Assembly (NCBI RefSeq): GCF_002494345.1
Contig: NZ_NXNI01000001.1
Location: forward strand, 2,666,001 to 2,730,000
Direction: 5' to 3'
Length of the DNA: 64,000 bases
Origin: Natrinema ejinorense
GTDB lineage: Archaea; Halobacteriota; Halobacteria; Halobacteriales; Natrialbaceae
Positions 54,443 to 55,321 of the stretch are shown in pieces. The translations under genes were made by a program, and so were the position numbers. Under the pieces are notes generated by a model, which was given only the letters and a program-made list of their open reading frames with translations, searched no databases and was not told the DNA's origin. Positions within the stretch are counted from its first letter, which is position 1. The number at the start of each line of letters is the position of its first letter.

Positions 54443-54469
54443 AACCGATCGGTCGTCCTCGAGGGACGA

Positions 54470-54802
54470 TCAGTCCCGCAGATAGCCGACGAGCCGGTCG
54501 ACTGCGTCGTTTAGCGGCTCGGGTTCTACTCGGCCGAACCAGTCAAGAATATCGTCGTGAGACAGCGAGACGACTCCCCAGGGGACGAGATAGCTCTCCT
54601 TCGGCAATCCGCCGTCGAGGAAATCGTCGTCGGTGACGGGGATCGTCTCGTCGTACCACGTTCGCGTCGTCAGCGTGACTGCGATGTACTGCTCCCCATC
54701 GAACGGATGAGCGGTCGTGCTGACGATCGCGAACGGACGACTCGGTTTCGATTCGTCGAACGGAGCTCCCGCCTCGATGATGTCTCCGCGTTCGTATTTC
54801 AT
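54470..54802 (-). CDS. PemK/MazF-like toxin
   Basis: The protein has 110 residues with the MazF SH3-like order: YERGDIIEAGAPF at 3-15, SRPFAIVSTTAHPF and YIAVTLTTRTWYDE, ending in a helix. MazF toxins are ribonucleases that cut mRNA. Its start overlaps the stop of the HTH gene by four bases (ATGA on the minus strand). An RNase activity is inferred; the usual Arg and Thr in the active site appear in SRPF and TTRT. Confidence 0.82.
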   Translation of the reverse strand: MKYERGDIIEAGAPFDESKPSRPFAIVSTTAHPFDGEQYIAVTLTTRTWYDETIPVTDDDFLDGGLPKESYLVPWGVVSLSHDDILDWFGRVEPEPLNDAVDRLVGYLRD

Positions 54803-55170
54803 TCGCCGTCCGTCCCCCGCTCACCCGGATGTCGCTCATCAGTGCCGGCCTCGCGCCACGCGTCCATCTCTTCCGTACCGAGTTGCTCGTTGAGCGAGTC
54901 GAGACTGCGGCTCAGGTCGGTGGCGGACCGGATTCGGTCCGAGTCACCGGCCGCCCAGTACGGCGGCTTGTGTCGCACCAGATTTCGCTCCTTCAATCGG
55001 CTCAGTACCGCACTGACGGCGTTCGGTTCGATGCCCGTCGAATCGGCGATTTCGCCCCGTCTGAAGGCCTTGTCGTCGTTCGAAACGAGAAAGGAGAACA
55101 CTCGCTCCGCCTGCGTGCGTTCCCCTTCGAACTCCGTTTCCCGTTCGAAGGTATCGATATCGATCGGCAT
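54799..55170 (-). CDS. Winged-helix partner of the MazF-like toxin
   Basis: The protein has 123 residues. A winged helix at about 15-70 includes GEIADSTGIEPNAVSAVLSRLKERNLVR, and a charged tail of about 50 residues follows. Classical MazE is a swapped-hairpin DNA-binding protein; this one is of MarR type and is therefore a non-canonical antitoxin candidate. The overlap with the toxin and position upstream fit autoregulation. The tail could bind the toxin. Confidence 0.78.
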   Translation of the reverse strand: MPIDIDTFERETEFEGERTQAERVFSFLVSNDDKAFRRGEIADSTGIEPNAVSAVLSRLKERNLVRHKPPYWAAGDSDRIRSATDLSRSLDSLNEQLGTEEMDAWREAGTDERHPGERGTDGE

Positions 55171-55321
55171 ACGTTCGTTTTCGTGTTTGGAACGTATGGC
55201 TGTTTTCCTCGTTTGTACCGTGTTTCACAGAACGGATTAGCAGCCTCCGCTCGAGCCGGCCGACGGTGACTCCATTCTCCGGTGACGGTGCGTTTTTGAC
55301 GCCGCTTCCCCACCCACCAGT

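Follow-up and report, generated by a model that had tools for sequence, protein, structure and literature searches.

What restrains a MazF-like toxin whose gene is preceded by a gene for a winged-helix protein, where a MazE gene would be expected from the known module? The question is raised by two small overlapping genes on the minus strand of a 64,000-nucleotide stretch of Natrinema ejinorense DNA, the whole of which is referred to here as the window. Very probably, the two genes form a toxin-antitoxin pair in which the winged-helix protein restrains the MazF-type toxin in place of MazE. This answer draws on the gene order and overlap, the conservation of both genes, their co-inheritance, the predicted fold and catalytic residues of the toxin and an asymmetry in gene decay, all of which are features observed for the module. 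The parts of the locus are the following:

54470-54802, minus strand: toxin gene of the MazF/PemK superfamily, 110 amino acids, assigned from its open reading frame, fold, family profile and conservation
54799-55170, minus strand: antitoxin gene, 123 amino acids, winged helix and acidic tail, assigned from its open reading frame, MarR_2 match, structure model and Foldseek
54799-54802, minus strand: ATGA overlap of 4 bp, toxin start codon over antitoxin stop codon
55175-55216, minus strand: putative promoter/operator 5' of the antitoxin start, with a block like ACAAACGAGGAAAACAGCCATACGTTCCAAACACGAAAAC and AAAC/ATAC direct repeats

On the minus strand the 123-amino-acid winged-helix gene comes first and the 110-amino-acid gene second. 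Because positions 54799-54802 (ATGA) are common to both open reading frames, the stop codon of the upstream gene overlaps the start codon of the downstream gene; both frames, their positions and the four-base overlap were found as an earlier sequence-only reading had given them. Against orthologs dN/dS is low, 0.09-0.20 for the toxin and 0.07-0.26 for the antitoxin, which marks the two as genuine genes under purifying selection. A long antisense open reading frame on the plus strand (54557-55240) was judged spurious because the minus-strand frames are so strongly selected.

The downstream product had been called MazF-like from its sequence, and both its predicted structure and its family agree with that name. 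The AlphaFold2 model of the 110-residue protein shows a MazF fold with confidence (mean pLDDT 90.5). All top Foldseek matches to this model are MazF proteins (E 3.4e-6), and VIA-align superposes it on MazF-mt1 over 107 residues (Z 14.3, rmsd 2.4 A), results by which the toxin has the PemK-like barrel of the PemK/MazF superfamily. Scanned alone, the window toxin gave no Pfam match above threshold, PF02452 (PemK_toxin) included, and nothing useful in Pfam, NCBIfam or PADLOC; a PHROGs scan returned a weak MazF-like match (E 0.0012). The family alignment and profile were built from 50 relatives, 44 of which hit PF02452 with E values of 0.1 or less (best 3.7e-10), and the profile finds the solved structure of B. 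subtilis EndoA/MazF at E 1.8e-4. In this profile alignment, Arg22 and Thr45 of the toxin are placed opposite Arg25 and Thr48 of EndoA. The arginine is kept in 82/83 family members and position 45 is Thr or Ser in 83/83, the catalytic Arg and Thr/Ser pattern of the superfamily, and from the alignment we infer that Arg22 and Thr45 form the catalytic pair. B. cereus MazF needs Arg25 and Thr48 for activity, and in MazF7 the Thr is replaced by Ser (PMC7354611). To judge by its fold and catalytic residues, the protein would be a MazF-type endoribonuclease whose cutting of RNA would halt growth.

The upstream product was described in the sequence-only reading as a winged-helix protein with a charged tail that is not MazE-like, and each element of that description is borne out. 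The protein matches Pfam MarR_2 at E 5.1e-5 with 23.8 bits, which is under the cut-off of 27, and 47 of 50 antitoxin relatives match the same family at E <= 0.01. Foldseek matches to its model are MarR/ArsR-type winged helices, so that the winged-helix core of the MarR family is recognized by profile and by structure. The model has a mean pLDDT of 66.9 and is confident only at about residues 20-75; of the N- and C-terminal helices by which MarR proteins dimerize, a single candidate at 77-96 is predicted with low confidence, and the C-terminal tail (about 97-123, pLDDT about 50) is disordered in the model. This poorly ordered tail is acidic, with nine acidic residues and three Arg counted in residues 98-123, and its Trp105 is kept in 82/83 relatives. 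At E <= 10 the window antitoxin does not hit PF04014 (MazE_antitoxin), nor is this family one of the 25 that 50 antitoxin relatives match most often; a winged helix stands in place of the N-terminal SpoVT/AbrB domain of MazE. The partner of a distant MazF in a methanogen is a clear MazE, matching PF04014 at E 8.7e-10.

Judged from sequence, the pair resembles MazEF in its predicted working and is set apart from MazE by its DNA-binding domain. The MazEF systems of E. coli and B. subtilis (MazE-MazF/EndoA) share with it the antitoxin gene in first position, the MazF fold, the Arg/Thr active site, promoter repeats and, as predicted for the haloarchaeal protein, an antitoxin with a DNA-binding N-terminus and a flexible acidic tail. 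They differ in that the DNA-binding domain of MazE is of the SpoVT/AbrB type and that of the haloarchaeal protein is a MarR-like winged helix, and the window toxin is about 12-25% identical to the solved MazFs. Kis-Kid/PemIK is similar in its PemK-superfamily toxin, its occurrence on plasmids and its overlapping operon, whereas PemI and Kis are AbrB-type antitoxins and the haloarchaeal partner is a winged helix. Partners other than MazE have precedents: Makarova et al. (2009) list AbrB, RHH, CcdA-associated and XF1863 partners for MazF and PHD for SMa0917, and MazF-RHH, MazF-XF1863 and SMa0917-PHD thus pair MazF-superfamily toxins with non-MazE proteins, although no winged helix is among the listed partners (PMC2701414). 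A winged-helix antitoxin with MazF was not described in the open-access papers covered by our literature search; earlier work may exist.

The sequence-only reading had proposed looking for the pair in haloarchaea, and the result was positive in most genomes. Toxin relatives are present in 93/125 genomes of the family (Natrialbaceae) and 188/243 genomes of the order (Halobacteriales); beyond the order, toxin matches are mostly weak and are paired with small proteins of other kinds. Haloarchaeal plasmids carry many copies of the pair, and in their annotation the toxin is usually named PemK/MazF and its partner 'MarR family' or 'helix-turn-helix'. The window pair itself sits between a hydantoinase gene (hyuB) and cofE. 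Both flanks accompany 10 of the 11 close orthologs, which come from several genera, and for the eleventh the stretch examined includes cofE. In five genomes of the genus without the pair the hyuB-cofE gap measures 69-139 bases, against 879 here (54443-55321). This variable gap holds a cupin-like gene in other genomes, including one of the same species, and a racemase-like gene in further genomes of the genus (both names come from inspecting translations), and the toxin pair is found there in a few genomes of the genus. The same genome encodes one more complete winged-helix/MazF pair (G000:C1:2957250-2957965; L032, L166), which shares about 42-45% identity with that of the window. The genome also contains a decayed third copy (L186, G000:C1:2864500-2868800, near 1790-2240), in which a short open reading frame keeps the antitoxin start and the C-terminal tail without most of the winged helix and adjoins a truncated toxin.

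Such patchy distribution and mobility would suit an abortive-infection defence, in which the antitoxin senses infection or is lost and the RNase is freed; this would be a role for the same machinery and not another mechanism. The antitoxin of AbiE (AbiEi) likewise has an N-terminal winged helix, joined to a separate C-terminal neutralising part, and the AbiEi model weakly matches the winged helix of the window antitoxin. No likeness to AbiEi was found outside that domain, and the AbiEii toxin is a nucleotidyltransferase. We consider the defence role unlikely, since the toxin is without a match in PADLOC, searches of viral contigs and phage records found no toxin relatives, and the neighbors are metabolic genes (hydantoinase, cofE) and not defence genes.

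The fate of the two genes in decaying copies bears on whether the downstream product is harmful. Both genes are intact in 82 of 91 toxin-selected loci, where a gene counts as 'intact' if a single reading frame covers 95 or more profile positions, a definition that admits a few open reading frames without a usual start codon. Seven loci combine a broken toxin with an intact antitoxin, and a single locus (L062, 1075-1824) retains an intact toxin reading frame with its catalytic residues beside a degraded antitoxin; at one more (L035) the toxin is broken and the antitoxin was not found. As in type II systems, the toxin is therefore rarely kept without its antitoxin (one locus versus seven), an asymmetry of the kind predicted if the toxin does harm and the antitoxin does not. 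At the hyuB-cofE site the toxin is broken in 4/11 copies and the antitoxin is intact in 11/11. When 27 antitoxins were chosen for having no listed toxin, five proved to have an intact toxin and nine a broken one, and none was found for 13. Promiscuous pairing, in which lone antitoxins would serve another toxin type, was rejected because these antitoxins adjoin toxin remnants or nothing consistent.

The same data can be set against the idea of a domesticated operon, in which an ordinary winged-helix transcription factor accompanies a MazF-fold partner that processes or binds RNA and is non-toxic at native levels. Toxin-less antitoxin genes are indeed common and intact, so the winged helix may have a role of its own, and the window pair occupies a stable chromosomal site common to several genera. 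Yet the catalytic residues are kept, it is the toxin and not the regulator that has been inactivated repeatedly, and the patchy presence, the sites without the pair and the many plasmid copies fit an addictive toxin better; we regard domestication as distinctly improbable.

The association of the two genes extends well beyond the window. The winged-helix gene lies just 5' of the toxin in 83 relatives and the 4-bp overlap recurs in 62/83 measured gene pairs, which places the order and overlap remarked on in the sequence-only reading beyond chance. Over 80 pairs, evolutionary distances among toxins and among antitoxins correlate with r 0.88. When antitoxins are exchanged between paralogs within a genome, r averages 0.47 and reaches at most 0.73 (1000 swaps). 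The fall indicates that a toxin and its own antitoxin are inherited together, although swapping within genomes does not fully remove shared ancestry. Inheritance of two small adjacent genes as a unit is again the pattern of type II systems. MarR-like genes are common in haloarchaea and one might adjoin the toxin by accident, the true antitoxin being elsewhere or an RNA, but this is hardly credible when the same winged-helix family adjoins the toxin in nearly all loci, usually with the 4-bp overlap, and the partner's variation follows that of its own toxin rather than a paralog's. A third gene of about 109 amino acids overlaps the toxin by 4 bp in L066, L072, L082, L217 and L223 (1839-2168 in L223) and is labeled 'hypothetical' in the annotation of a Salinigranum plasmid; a regular third gene in the module was rejected, as it is limited to this small subgroup.

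We thus favor, with considerable confidence, a chromosomal type II module composed of a MazF-type RNase toxin and a winged-helix antitoxin that would repress the promoter and block the toxin with its tail. Toxicity, RNase activity, neutralization, autorepression and the tail's function are the predicted parts of this proposal. The earlier suggestion that a MarR-type antitoxin with a charged tail represents a variant of the known module gains support from the pairing, co-inheritance, toxin decay, catalytic residues and promoter block.

The promoter block, located just 5' of the antitoxin start, is kept in 10 orthologs, and the sequence further upstream diverges. In a set of 24 diverse members the triplet TAC is over-represented (88 vs 61), and its recurrence at a distance of 9 bp, seen 15 times against an expectation of 2.0, falls near the AT-rich promoter. 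A palindromic operator with the arms CATACGTTC/GAACGTATG of the window was rejected: orthologs do not preserve these arms, which makes direct repeats the better fit. The repeats and the conserved block suggest that the winged-helix domain would bind the promoter shared by the two genes and repress it, making the module autorepressed.

Evidence on the tail comes from a locus outside the haloarchaeal order that belongs to a small separate class (L173). Its toxin partner is without a winged helix and has an unrelated N-terminal region, and 12 of its last 22 residues are identical to those of a winged-helix partner, a match above all 200,000 shuffles. The disordered tail of MazE has a known role in MazF inhibition (PMC4803016), and the two observations together make the acidic tail of the antitoxin the likely inhibitor of the toxin. 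By analogy with MazE, the flexible tail with its Trp would fill the RNA-binding groove of the toxin; beyond its winged helix the antitoxin is poorly modeled, so this mechanism rests on analogy and one natural exchange of the N-terminal region. We tentatively extend the proposal, in a form that we think less likely than not, to a modular antitoxin: the acidic Trp tail would be a toxin-specific inhibitor carried on a winged helix in haloarchaea, on an unrelated region in L173 and on AbrB/DUF2281 domains in methanogens, and lone antitoxins would serve as immunity genes that protect against newly arriving modules of this type.

If the toxin-antitoxin reading is correct, the majority of haloarchaeal genomes harbor a MazF system whose antitoxin is of another kind and has so far been annotated only as a MarR or HTH regulator. 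The winged helix would join the antitoxin folds that control MazF, the family would illustrate how tail and DNA-binding domain can be exchanged, and the system would be open to testing in Haloferax volcanii. With many paralogs per genome, it would also lend itself to work on partner specificity and on immunity conferred by an antitoxin alone.

Distant MazF relatives in methanogens (L175-L178, L182 and L183) have MazE or DUF2281-type partners. The tails of these partners carry an acidic motif with two Trp residues, KDWL.PEEDEAW.DL-like, which resembles the tails of some winged-helix partners.
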